Below, piece after piece: positions 38,574-48,952 of a stretch of 64,000 nt of DNA. Each line of letters opens with the position of its first letter. The first letter of the stretch is position 1. The position numbers and the translations under genes are program-made. Source of the DNA: Ruminococcus sp. (GTDB taxonomy: Bacteria; Bacillota; Clostridia; Oscillospirales; Ruminococcaceae); the NCBI GenBank assembly GCA_015066805.1, contig SVNP01000006.1, forward strand, positions 1 to 64,000, read 5' to 3'. A model generated the notes under the pieces. The model was given only the letters and a program-made list of their open reading frames with translations. It was not told the DNA's origin and did not search any database.

Positions 38574-38779
38574 GATTTTTCGCATATCCTGAATGTGTTT
38601 CCCAAAAGTTGCCACTAATTATTGTGCAAGATACACAAAAGAAGGGGCGATAATTCTACAATCGCACCGTGCTGCATCCCCTTGAAATTCACCGAAATCT
38701 GTGGTATAATTGTTACGATAGCTGTTTTATGCCATAATCAACTAACCTAACATGATTGCATTTTCAGGAGGCGCAAACA

Positions 38780-41700
38780 ATGGGCTTTAAAATTAAAAAT
38801 GGCGTTTTGCTGAAATATGAGGAGACCGGCACGCTGGAACGTCTGGGCATCCGCAAAAAAGGCGAGAGCCTTGTTGTGCCCAAAAACGTGACCGAGATCG
38901 CAGACGAGGCTTTTACCATGACTGCCGTCAGCGGTGTTACACTCCCCGACTCCACCTTGTCCATCGGCGAAAAATCCTTCGCACTCTGTGCAGAGCTGGA
39001 AACCATTTATATTCCCGAAGGACTGCGACATATCGGCGCAAATGCCTTCGATGGCTGCCATGTGCTTTCTACCATGATCATCCCCGATACCTGCGATACC
39101 GTAGGTATGTGGGCGTTTTGTAACTGCAGCAACCTGAAGCACCTGAAATTTTCCGCCGCTATGGATACCATCGACCGCGGCACCTGTTCCGGCTGCTCTC
39201 ACCTCCAGGAGATCGAGATCCCCGGCAATGTACAATATATCGAAAACCGTGCGTTTTTTGCCTGCACCGGCCTTACTACCGTGAAGCTCTCCTCCGGCCT
39301 GCGTGTCATCGGCAGAGAGGCCTTCGCAAACTGCACCTCTCTTACTACGGTTTCTATCCCCGAAACCGTAACGGAAATCTGCGAGGACGCTTTTGCCGGC
39401 TGTACCGAGCTGAAATGCGTGATCATTCCGCCCTCCGTGACCAAGCTGCACCCCTTTGCCTTCGGCACAGAGCATAATCTGAAAATCATCACTGCCTGCA
39501 CCGGCAGCGCGGCACATCAGTTTGCCCTGAAGGAAAATGTGATGTGCTACACCGAGCGTGAAGCCGCTCTGCTGCGTGGCGCAAACCCCGCATTCTTCAT
39601 CGAATACGGCATTCTGAAAAAATATACCCAGGAATACAATGTCCGTGATATTATGATCCCCCAAGGCGTGATCCGCATCGGTAACCACGCTTTTGAACAG
39701 AACAAGCAACTGGTTTCCGTGGTGATTCCCGAGGGCGTAGAGGAAATCGGCGGATACGCCTTTAACGGCTGCCGCAGTTTGCAGCGCATCTACCTGCCCA
39801 GTACCCTGCGCCGTATCGGCCGTTTCGCTTTCCGTGATTGTCCCCTGCTGGAGGTCATTCTGCCCCAGGGCATTGAAGTGGTGGAGAAAAACGCTTTCCA
39901 GAGCTGTACCACCATGCGTCGCTTCTATATGCCCGATACCCTGAAGGTCATGGAAAATGAAGCCCTGCGGGATTGTATGTCCCTGACCGAGCTGCGGTTC
40001 TCCTCTCAGTTGGAGATCATCAGCGACGGTATCTGCACCGGATGCTCATCCATGCGTACCGTTGTGATCCCGGAAGGTCCCAAGTACATCCAGCAAAATG
40101 CCTTCCGCAACTGCAGCAGCCTTTGTGAAGCCTATATTCCCGACAGCGTGGAAGAAATCGCCGGCAACGCCTTTGCCGATACGCCTCTCTTCCGTATGAC
40201 TGCGGGTCACTATATTGTCGGCCGTTTCCTGATCCGTGCCGATGGATACAGCCCCATCCCCATCGGCGTGCGCCGTATCGGCCCCCGTGCCTTTGAACGT
40301 GGCGGCCTGCGGAATGCCGTGATCCCTGAGGGTGTCATCAGCATTGGCGATAACGCCTTTGCCAACTGCGGTGTGCTGACGGATGTTTCCATTCCCTCCA
40401 CCGTTACCCAGATCGGCGTGGATGCCTTTGCCTACACACCTTGGCTCAGCCGCCGTGCGGAGCCCTTTACCATCGTAGGTGCCAGCATTCTGCTGCACGC
40501 CAATCCCCCCCAGACAGAGGTGGATGTGCCCATCGGCGTGCGCTGCATCGCATCAGCCGCTTTTGCACAGCTCCCCGTTCGTGCAGTACGCCTGCCTGAG
40601 GGTCTGCACACCATCCAGCATGGCGCATTCTCCTTCTGTGAGCAGTTGGAGTACATTGAGCTGCCCGGCACGCTCCGCACCATCGAAGGCTACGCCTTCC
40701 ATAGCTGCTCTGCTCTGCACACCGTAAAGCTCCATGACGGTCTCTCCAAGATCGGCCACGCAATGTTCAGCAATTGTGTTGCCCTCAAGAGCATCCGTCT
40801 GCCCTCTACCCTGACCGAAATCGACAACGAGGCGTTCTATCATGCCGGCTTGCGTGAAATCATCATCCCCGAGGGTGTGACCCGAATCGGACGCTCCGCA
40901 TTCAGCCATTGTGCCCAGCTTGCAGATATTTTTATTCCCGCATCGGTTACACAGATCGAAGAAAACGCCTTTACCGACTGTCCCAAATTCCGTCTGCATG
41001 CCGAAGAAGGCTCTTTTGCCGAGCGTTACGCCAAGCAGAACAATATGCTGATGCAGTTTGTCAAGCATACCGGAGAGCCCCCTGTCAGCTTCTCTGAGCC
41101 GGTACAGCAGCCCCAGCGTGTGGCACCGCCTGTGCCCCAGGCTCCCGTACAGCAGGCAGCACCTTCCGCAGATCCCGATTTCCTGTTCCGTCCTGTTGCA
41201 CCCCAGCCGGAGCCCGAGCAGGCACCTGTCAAAAAGCAGCCTGCCCCCAAGCCCGAGCCGGAGATCAAGCTGCATTTTGTGGAGCCGAAGGCCACAGAAA
41301 AGCCCAAGGCTGTCCCGCAGCCTGAGCCTGCCAAGGAAATCCCCCGCGAGGAAACAGCCAAGTCTGCCGCTGTCGCACCTGAAAAGCCCAAAAAGGCCGT
41401 TGCCCCCAAGCCTGTTGATATTCCTGCCGAGAAACCCGCCACGGCAGCGACCAAAGCAGCAGAAGCACCCACAGAAGAACACCGTCCCAAGTACCGCAGC
41501 TTTGATGAGGAAGAGGAAATCAACTACGCAGAGCGCATTAAGCGAGAGCTGGAAGAAGCACGGAAAAAGTCCGTGCCTGTGGATCCCAACGCCAAGCTGC
41601 CGCAGTTGGAGGAAGAGCCCGAACCCAAGCCGGCGCCCAAGCAGCCTAAGGAAAAGGCAAAAAAGCCCAAAAAGGCAAAGGCAAAGCCCGAGCGTGAGCT

Positions 41701-42040
41701 TTCTCCCGAGGAGGCAAAGGCAAAGCGTCGCGCCAGCTTGTTGGATGACCTGCCCGACCTGCCCGAGGATCGTGAGCGTAAGCAGCGCATGAAGGAAAGC
41801 CCCGAAGAACGAAAGGCCCGTATGCGTGCCAGCCTGCTGGATGATCTGCCGGATCTGCCCGATCTGCCGGATGAGCCTGAGGTTCCCGAGCCGCCCAAGG
41901 CAAAGCCTGCTGCACCCGAAGCCACTCAGCCCCAGGAACAGACAGCTCCTGCCGGCAGCGAGGAAGGTGCAGCCGATGACGATCCTTTTGCAAACATCCA
42001 CTGGAATGAGGATCAGTCTACCTTTACCATTCGACTCTGA
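38780..42040 (+). CDS. large LRR_5 (BspA-like) leucine-rich repeat protein without signal peptide, Pro/Lys/Glu-rich C-terminal tail
   Basis: Repeated V.IPEGVxxIGxxAFxxCxxLxxVxIPxxVxxI units; C-terminal duplicated RASLLDDLPDLP. Confidence 0.9.
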   Translation: MGFKIKNGVLLKYEETGTLERLGIRKKGESLVVPKNVTEIADEAFTMTAVSGVTLPDSTLSIGEKSFALCAELETIYIPEGLRHIGANAFDGCHVLSTMIIPDTCDTVGMWAFCNCSNLKHLKFSAAMDTIDRGTCSGCSHLQEIEIPGNVQYIENRAFFACTGLTTVKLSSGLRVIGREAFANCTSLTTVSIPETVTEICEDAFAGCTELKCVIIPPSVTKLHPFAFGTEHNLKIITACTGSAAHQFALKENVMCYTEREAALLRGANPAFFIEYGILKKYTQEYNVRDIMIPQGVIRIGNHAFEQNKQLVSVVIPEGVEEIGGYAFNGCRSLQRIYLPSTLRRIGRFAFRDCPLLEVILPQGIEVVEKNAFQSCTTMRRFYMPDTLKVMENEALRDCMSLTELRFSSQLEIISDGICTGCSSMRTVVIPEGPKYIQQNAFRNCSSLCEAYIPDSVEEIAGNAFADTPLFRMTAGHYIVGRFLIRADGYSPIPIGVRRIGPRAFERGGLRNAVIPEGVISIGDNAFANCGVLTDVSIPSTVTQIGVDAFAYTPWLSRRAEPFTIVGASILLHANPPQTEVDVPIGVRCIASAAFAQLPVRAVRLPEGLHTIQHGAFSFCEQLEYIELPGTLRTIEGYAFHSCSALHTVKLHDGLSKIGHAMFSNCVALKSIRLPSTLTEIDNEAFYHAGLREIIIPEGVTRIGRSAFSHCAQLADIFIPASVTQIEENAFTDCPKFRLHAEEGSFAERYAKQNNMLMQFVKHTGEPPVSFSEPVQQPQRVAPPVPQAPVQQAAPSADPDFLFRPVAPQPEPEQAPVKKQPAPKPEPEIKLHFVEPKATEKPKAVPQPEPAKEIPREETAKSAAVAPEKPKKAVAPKPVDIPAEKPATAATKAAEAPTEEHRPKYRSFDEEEEINYAERIKRELEEARKKSVPVDPNAKLPQLEEEPEPKPAPKQPKEKAKKPKKAKAKPERELSPEEAKAKRRASLLDDLPDLPEDRERKQRMKESPEERKARMRASLLDDLPDLPDLPDEPEVPEPPKAKPAAPEATQPQEQTAPAGSEEGAADDDPFANIHWNEDQSTFTIRL

Positions 42041-42602: not shown

Positions 42603-44492
42603 TTAGTTGAGAACGCCAAAGATTACCAGAGGATCAACGTGCTGCTCAGCAACGTGTGCGCACTCTGCACCGATAACCTCAGTCCAGGTGGTGGGCACGC
42701 CCATAACGGTGTTGCGGTTGTAGTAGATCAGCATGTTGATAGCATCCAGGGTGATAACATCCTGAGCTGCGTCAACGTCAGCAGCGTAGCACATTGCACG
42801 GAAGTCCTGATCGTTCAGGCCGAATGCATCCTGAGTCTCCTCAGCGGTGTACTTCAGAACGGATACACGGTTGTACAGCTCCAGAGCGGTGATAGCATCC
42901 AGAGTATCGTTGGTGTTATCCAGAGAAACGTCGCCGCGCTCCATAACGATTACGTCAAAGTCTGCAACGTTCAGGTTTGCGAAGATAGCATCTTCCAGGT
43001 TAGCGGTGTTGTACTCCAGGGTCTCCAGCAGATCAACGATTGCATCGTAGCCTTCCTGAGAAACGTTCACGCCAATGGTGTAAACGCCGTAGCCGTTGTA
43101 CTCCAGATCAGCAGCGGTAGCAGCGTCTGCATAGAAGCAGTCATCGGGCAGAGGAATGTTCTCTACCAGAGAACCATCAGCATAAACGCTCAGCACAGCG
43201 TCGATACCGGAGAGGTTAAACTCAACGGTCTCCTCAGACCAGTAGTACAGGTTATCGGTGATGCCATCGGTAACGGTCAGCTCGTAGGTGTAAACGATCT
43301 CGGGGATCTCAACAACCTCCAGGGTCACGCTGTCGATCACACGGGTAGCGGTATAGGTTGCACCGAACATGCTTGCGCCGCAGCCCAGCTCCTTGTGGGA
43401 CTGAACATCAACAACCTTGTAGATGTAGCCCTCAGCCAGCTCGTAATCCTCAACGAAGTACTCCTCCAGCTCAAACAGCTTGTCAGCAGTGGTGTAGTAC
43501 TCCTGGAAAGCAGCCAGCAGCTCAGCATTCTGGTCATCCTCGATGCTGAAGGTGGTGGAGATGTAGCCATTGCCGAAGTAAGCCTGGATGTCATATGCGC
43601 CTGCCAGGACATCAGCGATATCAGCAACAGTCAGGGTAACCTCAGCGATATCCTGAGTGTCGTTGAGAAGAGCAACTGCGTCATCAAACTTTGCGTTAAC
43701 TTTCTCATTTGCCAGAACATCTGCAAAGGTAGCGGGAGCCTCCTTCTCAATGGATGCGGGCAGAGCCTCAACCAGAGCAGCGTAGAAGGTCTCGAAATCG
43801 GTTGCGCTGATCTCAGTAGCGCTGAACTTATCCTTAGCCTCCTGGATCTTGGCAGCAACCTTAGCGATCTTGTCCTCTGCGCCAACGGCAGTCAGAGCAG
43901 TGGAAACCTTAGCCATCAGGTAATCCTCGATGTTAGCGATGCCGTAGGTCTCGCCATCCTCAGCCTCAAAAGCAACGTCATAGCCAACGGTGCAGTAGGA
44001 GGTCATGTCGATCGCGATGGTAACGGTACCGGAAACGTTCATGTCGATGTCAGCGCCGGTCACGCCAGCCAGCTTCTGAGCCATAGCAGCACCCACAGCA
44101 GGGCCGCACTCGTCAATGTTAACAGTCAGAACATACTGGCCTGCAACACCGGTCAGAGTAGCATCGGAAACTGCAGCAGCGATCTCATCGGCACCGCCGA
44201 CGTTGTACTTTGCAAACAGCTTCTTCACAGCGTTTCTTGCCATGTCTGCGGAAACCTCGGTATCCAGAGCATCTGCTGCGGTGAAAGCAGCGGAGAGCAG
44301 GTTGTACCAGCTGCCCTCGGTGTACTCCATGTAACCATCGGGATTCACAAATACGGGAACGTCGGTCAGATAGGATGCGTCAACAGTGACATCTGCTGCG
44401 GATGCGTTCATAGCAACAACACCCAGCTGGGAAGCTGCCAGCAGAATGCCGGTTGCGGAAGCGATTCCGCGCTTGAACATGGTCTTTTTCAT
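42603..44492 (-). CDS. secreted acidic protein of unknown function with divergent C-terminal dockerin
   Basis: Signal peptide; C-terminus GDVSLDNTNDTLDAITALELYNRVSVL...ADVDAAQDVITLDAINMLIYYNRNTVMGVPTTWTEVIG. Confidence 0.85.
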   Translation of the reverse strand: MKKTMFKRGIASATGILLAASQLGVVAMNASAADVTVDASYLTDVPVFVNPDGYMEYTEGSWYNLLSAAFTAADALDTEVSADMARNAVKKLFAKYNVGGADEIAAAVSDATLTGVAGQYVLTVNIDECGPAVGAAMAQKLAGVTGADIDMNVSGTVTIAIDMTSYCTVGYDVAFEAEDGETYGIANIEDYLMAKVSTALTAVGAEDKIAKVAAKIQEAKDKFSATEISATDFETFYAALVEALPASIEKEAPATFADVLANEKVNAKFDDAVALLNDTQDIAEVTLTVADIADVLAGAYDIQAYFGNGYISTTFSIEDDQNAELLAAFQEYYTTADKLFELEEYFVEDYELAEGYIYKVVDVQSHKELGCGASMFGATYTATRVIDSVTLEVVEIPEIVYTYELTVTDGITDNLYYWSEETVEFNLSGIDAVLSVYADGSLVENIPLPDDCFYADAATAADLEYNGYGVYTIGVNVSQEGYDAIVDLLETLEYNTANLEDAIFANLNVADFDVIVMERGDVSLDNTNDTLDAITALELYNRVSVLKYTAEETQDAFGLNDQDFRAMCYAADVDAAQDVITLDAINMLIYYNRNTVMGVPTTWTEVIGAECAHVAEQHVDPLVIFGVLN

Positions 44493-44777: not shown

Positions 44778-44806
44778 TTGACATTGTGAAGATTTTATGG
44801 TAGAAT
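44778..44806 (+). promoter_or_regulatory. strong sigma-A promoter for the orphan RNA
   Basis: TTGACA-17 nt-TAGAAT. Confidence 0.85.
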
Positions 44807-44812
44807 GTAATC

Positions 44813-45078
44813 AAGCAAGAGGAAGTCGCACACTTCCGGTGCAGATTACAAAGAAAGGGCGTGTGACCAATGGGTCATTCACATCTTTCCTCCCCGTGAG
44901 TCAAACGGCGGAGGGCCGACAGGTACGATATCCGCCGCATTTTCCATGGAGGCTTGAGTCCGATGTACAAGTAATGTAACACCGCTTGCAAAGCGGAAAC
45001 GATCTTAATCATAGTGAACCTCTATATTTGTAGGTATAAGCGATCATCGTCTGCCCGTGGGACGGTGATCGCTTTTTA
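44813..45078 (+). ncRNA. candidate structured ncRNA (about 265 nt), family unassigned
   Basis: Consensus promoter at the 5' end, 14-bp terminator AAGCGATCATCGTC/GGACGGTGATCGCTT plus T-run at the 3' end, several internal hairpins, no credible ORF. Confidence 0.75.
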
Positions 45079-45207
45079 TCTGCGGCGCATACTGCTATAT
45101 AGATAGTATACACTGCGGTGCAGATCACTGTCAGTTGAAAATTCCGCAGCTTTTTGAAAAAAGTGCTTGACAAACGCTGCGTGGTATGGTATAATATTTC
45201 TTGTTGT

Positions 45208-45281
45208 GAGGGTGTAGCTCAGTTGGTTAGAGTACCTGCTTGACATGCAGGGGGTCGACGGTTCAAGTCCGCCCATCCTCA
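45208..45281 (+). tRNA. tRNA-Val (GAC)
   Basis: GAGGGTG..CCTGC TTGACAT GCAGG..GGTTCAAGTCC..CATCCTC A. Confidence 0.93.
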
Positions 45282-45288
45282 TCCTGAA

Positions 45289-45616: not shown

Positions 45617-46180
45617 TTGCGTATGTTCGCAAAAATCATAAAGTACGTTTTGAAACCTCTGGCCAGCCTGCTGCTGGCTGCCGCCATTACCTTTTCCTTC
45701 CTCGTTGCAGGCGTAAAGCTGCTGGGTGTGGAGCTGTATACCATCCTCTCCCCTTCCATGGAGCCCAACTACCACACCGGTGCGCTGATCTATGTCAAAG
45801 AGGTGGATCCCGCCGAGCTGCAGGTGCGGGATGTCATCACCTTCCGCCTGGACGGAACCACCACCGCAACCCACCGCATCATCGAGGTGCTGCACGAGGA
45901 CGGCTTACAGTTCCGCACTCAGGGTGATGCAAACGATATCCCCGATACCAACCCCGTGGATGCTGCCGATATCATCGGCACGCCCGTTGTACATATCCCC
46001 TATCTGGGGTACGCCGCTTCCTATGTGCAGAACCCTCCGGGTCTGTATGCGGCCATCGCTATTTTTGCAGCAATCGTTTTTATTGTCCTCATTGTGGATA
46101 TCTTAGACGGTGTCTACAACCCAAAGCCGGACAAAAAAGCGAAAGCCGATAATTCCAACCGAAAGGAGACTGAAGCATGA
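45617..46180 (+). CDS. sipW: SipW-type (ER/archaeal-like) signal peptidase I
   Basis: ELYTILSPSMEPNYHTGALIYVKEVDPAELQVRDVITFRL..TTATHRIIEV..FRTQGDANDIPDTNPV; C-terminal TM. Confidence 0.93.
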   Translation: MRMFAKIIKYVLKPLASLLLAAAITFSFLVAGVKLLGVELYTILSPSMEPNYHTGALIYVKEVDPAELQVRDVITFRLDGTTTATHRIIEVLHEDGLQFRTQGDANDIPDTNPVDAADIIGTPVVHIPYLGYAASYVQNPPGLYAAIAIFAAIVFIVLIVDILDGVYNPKPDKKAKADNSNRKETEA

Positions 46181-46866
46181 AGACCCCAGCAAAGATCCTT
46201 TCTCTTGCGGCAGGTGCAGCCCTTCTGGTGACTGTCAGTATTGCAGGCACTGTGGCGTATCTCACCGCAGAGGACAAGGCCATCAATACCTTCACCGTGG
46301 GTAAGGCTACCATTACGCTGGATGAAACCGACGTGGATGAGTACGGTGTCAAGGTCAGTGATGTGCGTGTGGACGGCAATGAGTATCGCCTGATCCCCGG
46401 ACAAACCTACATCAAAGACCCCACCGTTACCATTACCGCCGGCTCCGAGGCCGTTTATGTGCGTATGCTCGTGACCATTAACGAGATGACCGCACTGAAA
46501 GCCATGTGCGGGGAAGATTTTCTCCCCCAGAACTATGTGAACGGCACCTGGGATGAAACCATCTGGCCCTGCGTGGGTGTAACGGATAACGGCGACGACA
46601 GCGTCACCTATGAATTCCGCTATACCGATCCTGACAAGGATGCCCTGCAGGATGTGGTGGATGCCTCCGGTTCCGCTGATGATTTGGTGCTGGATGCCTT
46701 GTTTGAAACCTTTACCATGCCGGGCACCGCTACTGCCGATCAACTGGAAGCTCTGGAAGATCTGGAGATCACTGTGGTGGGCAATGCAATCCAGGCAGCA
46801 GGCTTTGCCGATGCCGATGCCGCTTGGACAGCCTTTGATCCCAAGGATGCCAACGAAGCCGGCTAA
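46177..46866 (+). CDS. TasA/camelysin-like SipW-dependent secreted protein
   Basis: Signal SLAAGAALLVTVSIAGTVAYLTAEDKAINTFTVGKATITLDE; ATGA overlap with sipW. Confidence 0.88.
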   Translation: MKTPAKILSLAAGAALLVTVSIAGTVAYLTAEDKAINTFTVGKATITLDETDVDEYGVKVSDVRVDGNEYRLIPGQTYIKDPTVTITAGSEAVYVRMLVTINEMTALKAMCGEDFLPQNYVNGTWDETIWPCVGVTDNGDDSVTYEFRYTDPDKDALQDVVDASGSADDLVLDALFETFTMPGTATADQLEALEDLEITVVGNAIQAAGFADADAAWTAFDPKDANEAG

Positions 46867-46943
46867 ACCCCTGTTTTTCATGTGAGCTGCGATAACAGCT
46901 CGTACCAATGAAAAAATCTTCAAGGAAAGGAGGAACCTACATC

Positions 46944-47534
46944 ATGCAGAAAACCGAAAAGCGTTACAGCCTCAAAGCGATGATCGCTGCATCCGCAGCA
47001 ACCGTTGCTCTGCTGGGTGCAGTAGGCGGTACGGTGGCATGGCTGATCGCAGAAAGCGACACCGTGACCAATACCTTTACCTACGGTGATATCAACATCA
47101 CCCTGACGGAAGATGACGTGGACGCAGACGGCGACCCCACTGCCAATACCTATGAGATGGTACCCGGCAATGCCATCGCCAAAAACCCCACCATTACCGT
47201 GGAGGCCGACAGCGAAGCAAGCTGGCTGTTCGTTAAGCTGGAGGAATCCGACAATTTCGATACCTTCCTGACCTATGAGCTGGCCGAAGGCTGGACCGCT
47301 CTGGAAGGCGTTGACGGCGTGTATTATCAGGAGGCAGCAGCCACCGGTGATGCCGCTGTGGAGTATGGCGTGCTGGCAAATGACGAAGTCGTTGTGGCAG
47401 AGAACATCACCAAGGAGCAGTTCAATGCACTGGATGCCACCGGTGCATTCCCCACCCTGACCGTATCTGCCTACGCTGTGCAGAAGGACAACATCGCATC
47501 CGCAGCCGATGCATGGGCATTGGCAAACCAGTAA
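46944..47534 (+). CDS. TasA/camelysin-like SipW-dependent secreted protein
   Basis: AVGGTVAWLIAESDTVTNTFTYGDINITLTEDD. Confidence 0.88.
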   Translation: MQKTEKRYSLKAMIAASAATVALLGAVGGTVAWLIAESDTVTNTFTYGDINITLTEDDVDADGDPTANTYEMVPGNAIAKNPTITVEADSEASWLFVKLEESDNFDTFLTYELAEGWTALEGVDGVYYQEAAATGDAAVEYGVLANDEVVVAENITKEQFNALDATGAFPTLTVSAYAVQKDNIASAADAWALANQ

Positions 47535-47596
47535 TCCCCTACATTTCCAAACGGCAAAAGCCGTAAACCACAAACAAATCATAAAGGAGTATTATC

Positions 47597-48952
47597 ATGA
47601 AAAAGTTTACTAAAGTAGCACTGTCCGCACTGAGCCTTGCTTCCGTAGCTGCTATTTCCATTGCCGGTACTGTGGCTTATCTGACCAACACCGATGCAGA
47701 TATCAACGTTATGACTCTGGGTAACGTTAAGATCGAGCAGCACGAGTACGAGCGTGTAACCAACGCAGACGGCTCCTTCAAGACCGAGACCATTGACGAG
47801 CAGAACAGCTATGTGCTGCAGGACTTCACTCAGGGCAAGGCACTGGTGCCCACCACTGACCCCACCAACCACGGTGCAGGTCCTTGGGACAGCACTACCG
47901 TGAGAATGTCTCAGGTTGATTCTTACGGCGGCATGCAGGTTTTCTCCAACAAGAACGCACAGGATAAGTTCGTTACCGTTGAGAACACCGGCAAGACCGA
48001 TGCTTATGTTCGCACCTTGGTTGCAATTGAGTGCGGCACCGGCGATGCGGATCTGATTGGCACCAGCTACCACAACACTTGGACCAAGAATGATATCGGC
48101 ACCATTGCAGTCGGCAATGTAAACTACTATCTGTTTGAGTATGTATATGCCGGTGGTAAACTGAGCGACGGCAGCTACAGACACAAAAACGGTGTGCTGC
48201 CTGCAGGCGATACCTCTTACCCCAACCTGTCTCAGATCTACATCCAATCTGTAGCTACTAACGAAGACATGGTAGCGCTGGACGGCAACGGCAACGGCAC
48301 TCTGGATGTTCTGGTATTCTCTCAGGCTGTTCAGGCCGATGGCTTTGCTGATGCCGAAACCGCTCTGAATGCTGCATTTGGTGATATCGACACCAAAAAC
48401 CATCCTTGGACTGAGGGCACCGGCATCGTTGTAGCTTCTCCCGAGTCCGAGGCAGTTCGTCCTGCAGGTTATGCTCCTGCCGGTGAGGATGTAGTAATCG
48501 ACAACTTGATCGTGAATGACAAGTCCGATGATGCAACCAACCTGCGTGCACTGTACAATAGCGGTGCCAAAATCGTTGGTGACCTGACCGTTACCAATTC
48601 CTATCTGGACGGCACTTATGCCATGAACGTTTACGGCGACGGCACCGGTGCTCTGATTGTTGAAAACACCGCTCTCCGTGGCTGGGTCAGCTACGATGGC
48701 TTTACCTCCGCCTCCTTCACCGACTGCAACTTTGATATCAACAGCAACGGCGAGTACTACAAGACCATCCGTCCTTACTCTGAGATCGTTCTGACCAACT
48801 GCGATTTCGCAGCAGGTTACGAGTTCTGGCTGGACAAGATGCCTGCCGGCGCTTCCATCACTTTTGACAACTGCACCATCGGCGGCGTGGCTCTCACCAA
48901 TGCTTCTCAGCTCAACGTTGTTTACGAGGGCGGCACTGTCGTCATTAAGTAA
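47597..48952 (+). CDS. SipW-dependent protein, TasA-like N-terminus plus beta-helix-like C-terminal region
   Basis: SIAGTVAYLTNTDADINVMTLGNVKIEQHEY; C-terminal SASFTDCNFDINSN..VLTNCDFAAG..ITFDNCTI ladder. Confidence 0.85.
   Translation: MKKFTKVALSALSLASVAAISIAGTVAYLTNTDADINVMTLGNVKIEQHEYERVTNADGSFKTETIDEQNSYVLQDFTQGKALVPTTDPTNHGAGPWDSTTVRMSQVDSYGGMQVFSNKNAQDKFVTVENTGKTDAYVRTLVAIECGTGDADLIGTSYHNTWTKNDIGTIAVGNVNYYLFEYVYAGGKLSDGSYRHKNGVLPAGDTSYPNLSQIYIQSVATNEDMVALDGNGNGTLDVLVFSQAVQADGFADAETALNAAFGDIDTKNHPWTEGTGIVVASPESEAVRPAGYAPAGEDVVIDNLIVNDKSDDATNLRALYNSGAKIVGDLTVTNSYLDGTYAMNVYGDGTGALIVENTALRGWVSYDGFTSASFTDCNFDINSNGEYYKTIRPYSEIVLTNCDFAAGYEFWLDKMPAGASITFDNCTIGGVALTNASQLNVVYEGGTVVIK

Follow-up and report, generated by a model that had tools for sequence, protein, structure and literature searches.

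A genus-wide array of putative micro-ORFs in gut bacteria as a candidate for action through ribosome engagement

In a window of 64,000 nucleotides from Ruminococcus sp. (contig SVNP01000006.1, assembly GCA_015066805.1; "the window" denotes this whole stretch), a promoter and a terminator enclose an RNA for which a first-pass annotation proposed an orphan structured non-coding RNA without any plausible ORF. What kind of RNA is this, and through what could it act? The proposal holds for a discrete RNA gene with promoter and terminator, conserved and unmatched in Rfam, but not for a plain non-coding RNA: two micro-ORFs preceded by Shine-Dalgarno (SD) sequences lie inside it, and the statement that there is no plausible ORF is wrong.

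Boundaries, fold and genomic neighborhood

Both boundary elements named by the first-pass annotation are present, the promoter with an extended TG in addition and the terminator with a stem of 15 rather than 14 bp (Table 1); in homologs, a TTGACA-type promoter lies 5' of the modules described below wherever the contig extends that far. All internal stems listed earlier are found in the sequence, and the strand folds somewhat more stably than its shuffles do (z -2.64; 2 of 200 equal it), although the terminator supplies much of the stability. A long-range AGAGG/CCTCT pairing suggested in the same annotation is absent from the predicted fold of the transcript.

Table 1. Coordinates of the features in and beside the RNA (window positions)
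Feature	Position	Strand	Remarks
Divergent gene, 629-aa secreted protein (MKKTMFKRG...), dockerin-like C-terminal repeats	42603..44492	-	constant neighbor of the RNA
Sigma-70-type promoter, TTGACA-17-TAGAAT, extended TG	44778..44806	+	11/12 consensus matches
Micro-ORF array RNA, about 265 nt	44812..45078	+	start site inferred from promoter; homologs in 30/30 genus genomes searched
Module 1: extended SD GAAAGGGCGTG, spacer, AUG (GAAAGGGCGTGTGACCAATG)	44853..44872	+	17.1 bits, E 3.9e-4
Hairpin TGACC-AATG-GGTCA, first start codon in loop	44864..44877	+	predicted fold; sequence common to G013 and G006
Micro-ORF 1, MGHSHLSSP-stop; stop UGA 44897-44899	44870..44899	+
Predicted pairing of micro-ORF 1 stop region (44892-44898) with micro-ORF 2 SD (44945-44952)	44892..44952	+	pair probabilities about 0.5-0.8
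Module 2: SD GGAGG (44948-44952) and micro-ORF 2, MYK-stop (44963-44974)	44948..44974	+
Intrinsic terminator: 15-bp stem with 7-nt loop GCCCGTG (stem and loop together 45038-45074), then TTTAT	45038..45078	+

The scan with Rfam 15 covariance models at gathering threshold returned tRNAs only for the window, and a relaxed-threshold search of the RNA region gave nothing credible. Nine homologous loci, and one full homolog searched at relaxed threshold, likewise matched no family. The RNA resembles 6S, tmRNA, SRP and RNase P RNA in being a stand-alone structured bacterial RNA but differs from them in lacking a covariance-model match, in agreement with the first-pass annotation, which could not place it among these families. 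The RF00013 match for 6S RNA is a separate gene (G000:C20:88899-89085, 69.8 bits), and none lies at this locus.

Upstream, the neighborhood is constant: an orthologue of the divergent secreted-protein gene is found in 27 out of 27 loci with upstream sequence. Its start lies 314-425 bp from the RNA promoter, the orthologous protein begins with MKSLFKR or similar, and the dockerin ending was seen in an orthologue as a sub-threshold Pfam match. Antisense action on the start of the divergent mRNA was considered and rejected, the duplex energies being not consistently beyond those of shuffles. Elsewhere in the window, positions 45617-48952 resemble a SipW/TasA-type matrix operon, with a SipW-like signal peptidase (NCBIfam), then a pair of proteins weakly matching SipW-dependent export and a third secreted protein of similar appearance; a large protein at 38756-42040 has, by eye only, many leucine-rich repeats like those of BspA-type surface proteins.

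Distribution and layout of the modules

The conservation in relatives on which the first-pass proposal had been staked is present, homologs of the predicted transcript occurring in all 30 genomes of the genus that were searched. A plain DNA search with the whole RNA yielded short matches only, in 2 of 60 relatives; the match in G013 continues, at weak similarity, across the promoter and roughly 200 nt of the RNA and adjoins the divergent-gene orthologue. Further homologs were located by inspecting the regions upstream of divergent-gene orthologues in other genus members. In these, the RNA consists of a motif near AAGGAYGTGYTTCCRATG, present in one to six copies behind a consensus promoter, and in each such module an SD sequence and an AUG open a very short ORF.

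At one mismatch, the motif occurs in 29 of the 30 genus genomes; in G013, the one genome left, the variant GGGCGTGTGACCGATG is found. The window genome (G000) has its one-mismatch match at another locus, the window copy being a GGGCGTG variant, and a 27-nt model has matches in all 30. Across 343 other genomes of the family, the pattern was found as single matches only, at about twice the rate of a reversed-pattern control, and no module cluster turned up outside the genus when 249 family genomes were searched with the model. Three of the single module-like matches in other genera look like ordinary ribosome-binding sites, having the form AAGGAGG, and none of the single matches is clustered. 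Within the sensitivity of the searches used, the RNA family appears to be restricted to the genus, which argues against a basic translational role. Off-locus matches of the module model that were inspected in genus genomes are mostly ordinary gene starts, e.g. that of a transporter permease-like protein.

The window genome has two further occurrences. At G000:C30:6544-6568 (L110), a micro-ORF AGGGATGTGATTCCAATG GGC TGA (MG-stop) follows a promoter and precedes a 273-aa gene, and the module may be used there as an upstream ORF as well. Near the 6S gene, at G000:C20:89868-89891 (L059, L114), one strong module (MESEQFSVRFLPAHTIPVGLH-stop) with a consensus promoter and a terminator-like hairpin precedes a downstream gene; Rfam gave no match besides 6S at this second transcript-like region.

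The layout of a module is a strong SD, an AUG about 10 nt past the GGR core, usually 1-12 codons, and a stop; the 5' stretch of the conserved motif is complementary to the 3' tail of 16S rRNA, and its 3' end is the AUG. A typical first module reads AGGAGGCGUUNCCAAUG GGC stop (MG-stop), a typical second module AGAAAGGAUGUGCUUCCGAUG CAG AAG UAC ... GGN (NNN) stop (MQKYSxG(x)-stop). Later modules add more short ORFs, for instance MYR-stop, often followed by a longer last ORF.

The window copy is a reduced member of the family with two micro-ORFs, the first of which belongs to the motif that is repeated and conserved across the genus. Module 1 is the only match of the module model in the window, and near-identical sequence is found in G013 and G006; its predicted anti-SD pairing amounts to -13.5 kcal/mol with an assumed Firmicutes 16S tail. 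The starts aligned with that of micro-ORF 1 read MGHQQHASVI-stop in G013 and MGHSTASSGFFIA-stop in G006, and at the place matching micro-ORF 2, G013 has GGAGGCTCGAAACCAATG GAC ACG TAA (MDT-stop). Pairing between the stop region of the first micro-ORF and the SD of the second would couple the two, which is only a suggestion because this pairing is not predicted in the fold of G013.

Reading frames, hairpins and the 3' domain

As the decisive test, we compared the distance from AUG to the first stop in the true frame with that in the two shifted frames, for 104 modules from 29 genomes. In 88% of the modules, an in-frame stop follows within 12 codons, whereas the shifted frames give 28% and 35%; for 8 codons, the values are 67% versus 15% and 17%. 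After thinning to 56 dissimilar modules, the figures for 12 codons are 88% versus 32% and 39%. Stops are distributed over UAA (46), UGA (44) and UAG (14), and no overlap with the following module is seen in any of 75 ORFs. The median predicted anti-SD pairing of the modules is -12.2 kcal/mol, close to the -12.1 of 18 SD-bearing genes of the window and far from the -5.6 of shuffled sequences; for the 16S 3' tail we assumed the usual Firmicutes sequence, which may not be that of this genome. Because SD strength and spacing are gene-like, stops are in frame and the ORFs do not overlap, the modules are very probably translated micro-ORFs.

Of the 17 sequences in the second-module group, 16 have their stop after codon 7 or 8, with all three stop codons in use. 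The stop of this group is placed in a hairpin loop, and the stems of the hairpin show compensatory changes (CGGA/UCCG, CCGGC/GCCGG, GCGGU/ACCGC and others). The pairing score in a swap test is 13.2 against 10.7 +/- 0.6, with 0 of 1000 swaps as high. A hairpin of at least 4 bp with the AUG in its loop is predicted for 70% of modules, as against 58% after swapping halves between modules; this is weakly above chance, and we do not claim a general rule of this kind. Beyond the last module, CCCGTG is kept in 28 of 29 homologs, usually as a hairpin loop on a stem of varying sequence.

Two observations on the 3' domain stand apart. In L046, L047, L050 and L056 (alignment columns 394-412), it contains GGYCGGAAGC or similar, complementary to GCUUCCGA of module 2, with which it pairs in the consensus fold; a switch that hides start sites is a possible reading of this predicted pairing. 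In the 3' loop, CCCGUG is followed by letters (CAG, UAC or GGG by lineage) that often equal those after the AUG of modules of the same lineage (L045, L052 and the window), hinting that the 3' hairpin may be derived from a module.

Proposed ribosome engagement and its alternatives

What is conserved in this RNA, then, are translation-initiation signals, the positions of in-frame stops, the 3' hairpin loop and, in one module, the hairpin at the stop codon. We presume that it is a stand-alone array of translated micro-ORFs that probably acts through ribosome engagement and not as an untranslated RNA or a source of protein. The selected feature would be the act of starting and then quickly ending translation, since start, stop and one stop hairpin are preserved, whereas the peptides (M-stop, MG-stop, MYR-stop, MQKYSxG-stop) are too short or too variable for an obvious product. 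ORFs of 2-8 codons undergo reiterative translation without dissociation of the ribosome, and for mccA in vitro the fitted number of rounds is about 71 at 7 codons, 30 at 11 and 6 at 15 (PMC6495379). In two thirds of the modules the ORF is no longer than 8 codons, within this range, and we therefore favor an array on which ribosomes engage and are held. With ORFs so short, a ribosome would cover its own start site throughout the ORF and could re-initiate there, so that each module might hold roughly one ribosome. The array would then be a ribosome sponge, or an occupancy switch in which both the structure and the 3' CCCGUG hairpin would depend on translation. Capture or titration of ribosomes specifically is a tentative proposal. 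Against the preferred reading count the last ORF, which in some lineages reaches 20-27 codons, the reduced state of the window copy and the slight excess of hairpins with the AUG in the loop.

A polycistronic mRNA whose tiny peptides are themselves functional, as signals, antibiotic precursors or effectors of membrane or ribosome, would have the same genuine initiation sites and in-frame stops; many ORFs have about 7 codons, like the microcin C precursor gene mccA, and MQKYSxG recurs across many species. Such a product is nevertheless unlikely, given how common ORFs of one to three codons are. Furthermore, codon positions 1 and 2 of the second-module ORFs are as free to vary as position 3, and because no third-position bias is seen outside the Gly codon, selection on the peptide is not evident. 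With mccA itself the array shares a strong SD, ORFs short enough for reiterative translation and a short, terminator-ended transcript (PMC6495379). mccA, however, is a single ORF whose Asn-ended peptide is modified by MccB, whereas the array RNA has up to six ORFs with varying ends and no conserved C-terminal Asn, and no ThiF (MccB-type) gene was seen on the contigs of the RNA among the matches listed. A precursor of this type was therefore rejected on the ORF ends and these contigs; the presence of ThiF as such is uninformative because ThiF is ubiquitous.

Unlikely as well, and ranked next, is a structured regulatory sRNA whose module and CCCGUG loop bind a protein or a target RNA, the frames being secondary. 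Ribosome binding alone does not account for the CC before the AUG, invariant in the module alignment, or for the conserved 3' loop, and the covarying stop hairpin would also suit this model. It leaves unexplained, though, the preponderance of in-frame stops, which the other frames do not match, and an anti-SD strength equal to that of genes.

Leader-like micro-ORFs followed by an intrinsic terminator also recall an attenuator that controls the next gene. The downstream neighbor, however, differs by lineage (tRNA-Val in several, groESL in G018, G023 and G019, others elsewhere), tRNA-Val is opposite in orientation in G012, and the tRNA-Val of the window (45207-45284) has its own TTGACA-17-TATAAT promoter, as the first-pass annotation had observed. 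Because the downstream gene is not conserved, a leader role is very improbable, and attenuation of tRNA-Val was rejected, no conserved co-directional downstream gene being found. Attenuator leader peptides, including the trans-acting peTrpL of Sinorhizobium (PMC7298713), resemble the array RNA as small translated RNAs with a terminator and a stop in a hairpin, but the array has no conserved downstream operon, contains several ORFs, and showed no enrichment of codons for a single amino acid that we noticed.

A CsrA sponge can be dismissed, barring an unrecognized CsrA homolog: AAGGAUGUG resembles a CsrA site, ARGGAUGU being similar to the CsrA consensus, and like CsrB/RsmZ the RNA is stand-alone with repeated GGA-containing modules, several per RNA, but its GGA sits in the SD before an AUG, and the search for the CsrA gene (PF02599) scored in 3 of 12 order relatives and in 3 control genomes but in 0 of 19 genomes of the genus.

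The array RNA also resembles the phage lambda bar minigenes, whose very short ORFs inhibit protein synthesis when translated (cited in PMC8012679). The likeness lies in very short SD-preceded ORFs with an effect, presumed for the array, via translating and not via a product; the array RNA differs in being chromosomal, tandem and conserved, with a dedicated promoter and terminator, and is not known to be toxic. No description of such a micro-ORF array was found in the literature searched.

Orphan RNAs without an ORF above the length filter are routinely classed as non-coding, and the conserved signal here lies in ORFs of 1-10 codons, which are invisible to annotation. A simple test for other orphan RNAs is to compare, for each SD-AUG, how soon the first stop comes in each of the three frames. 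To our knowledge, regulation by futile initiation has so far been known only from single short ORFs, e.g. mccA and lambda bar. If ribosome capture is true, the array would be a riboregulator that works through futile initiation; that it serves the whole genus as a dedicated ribosome-capture RNA, sensing or buffering translation capacity without a protein product, is a conjecture we hold more loosely than that of capture itself.
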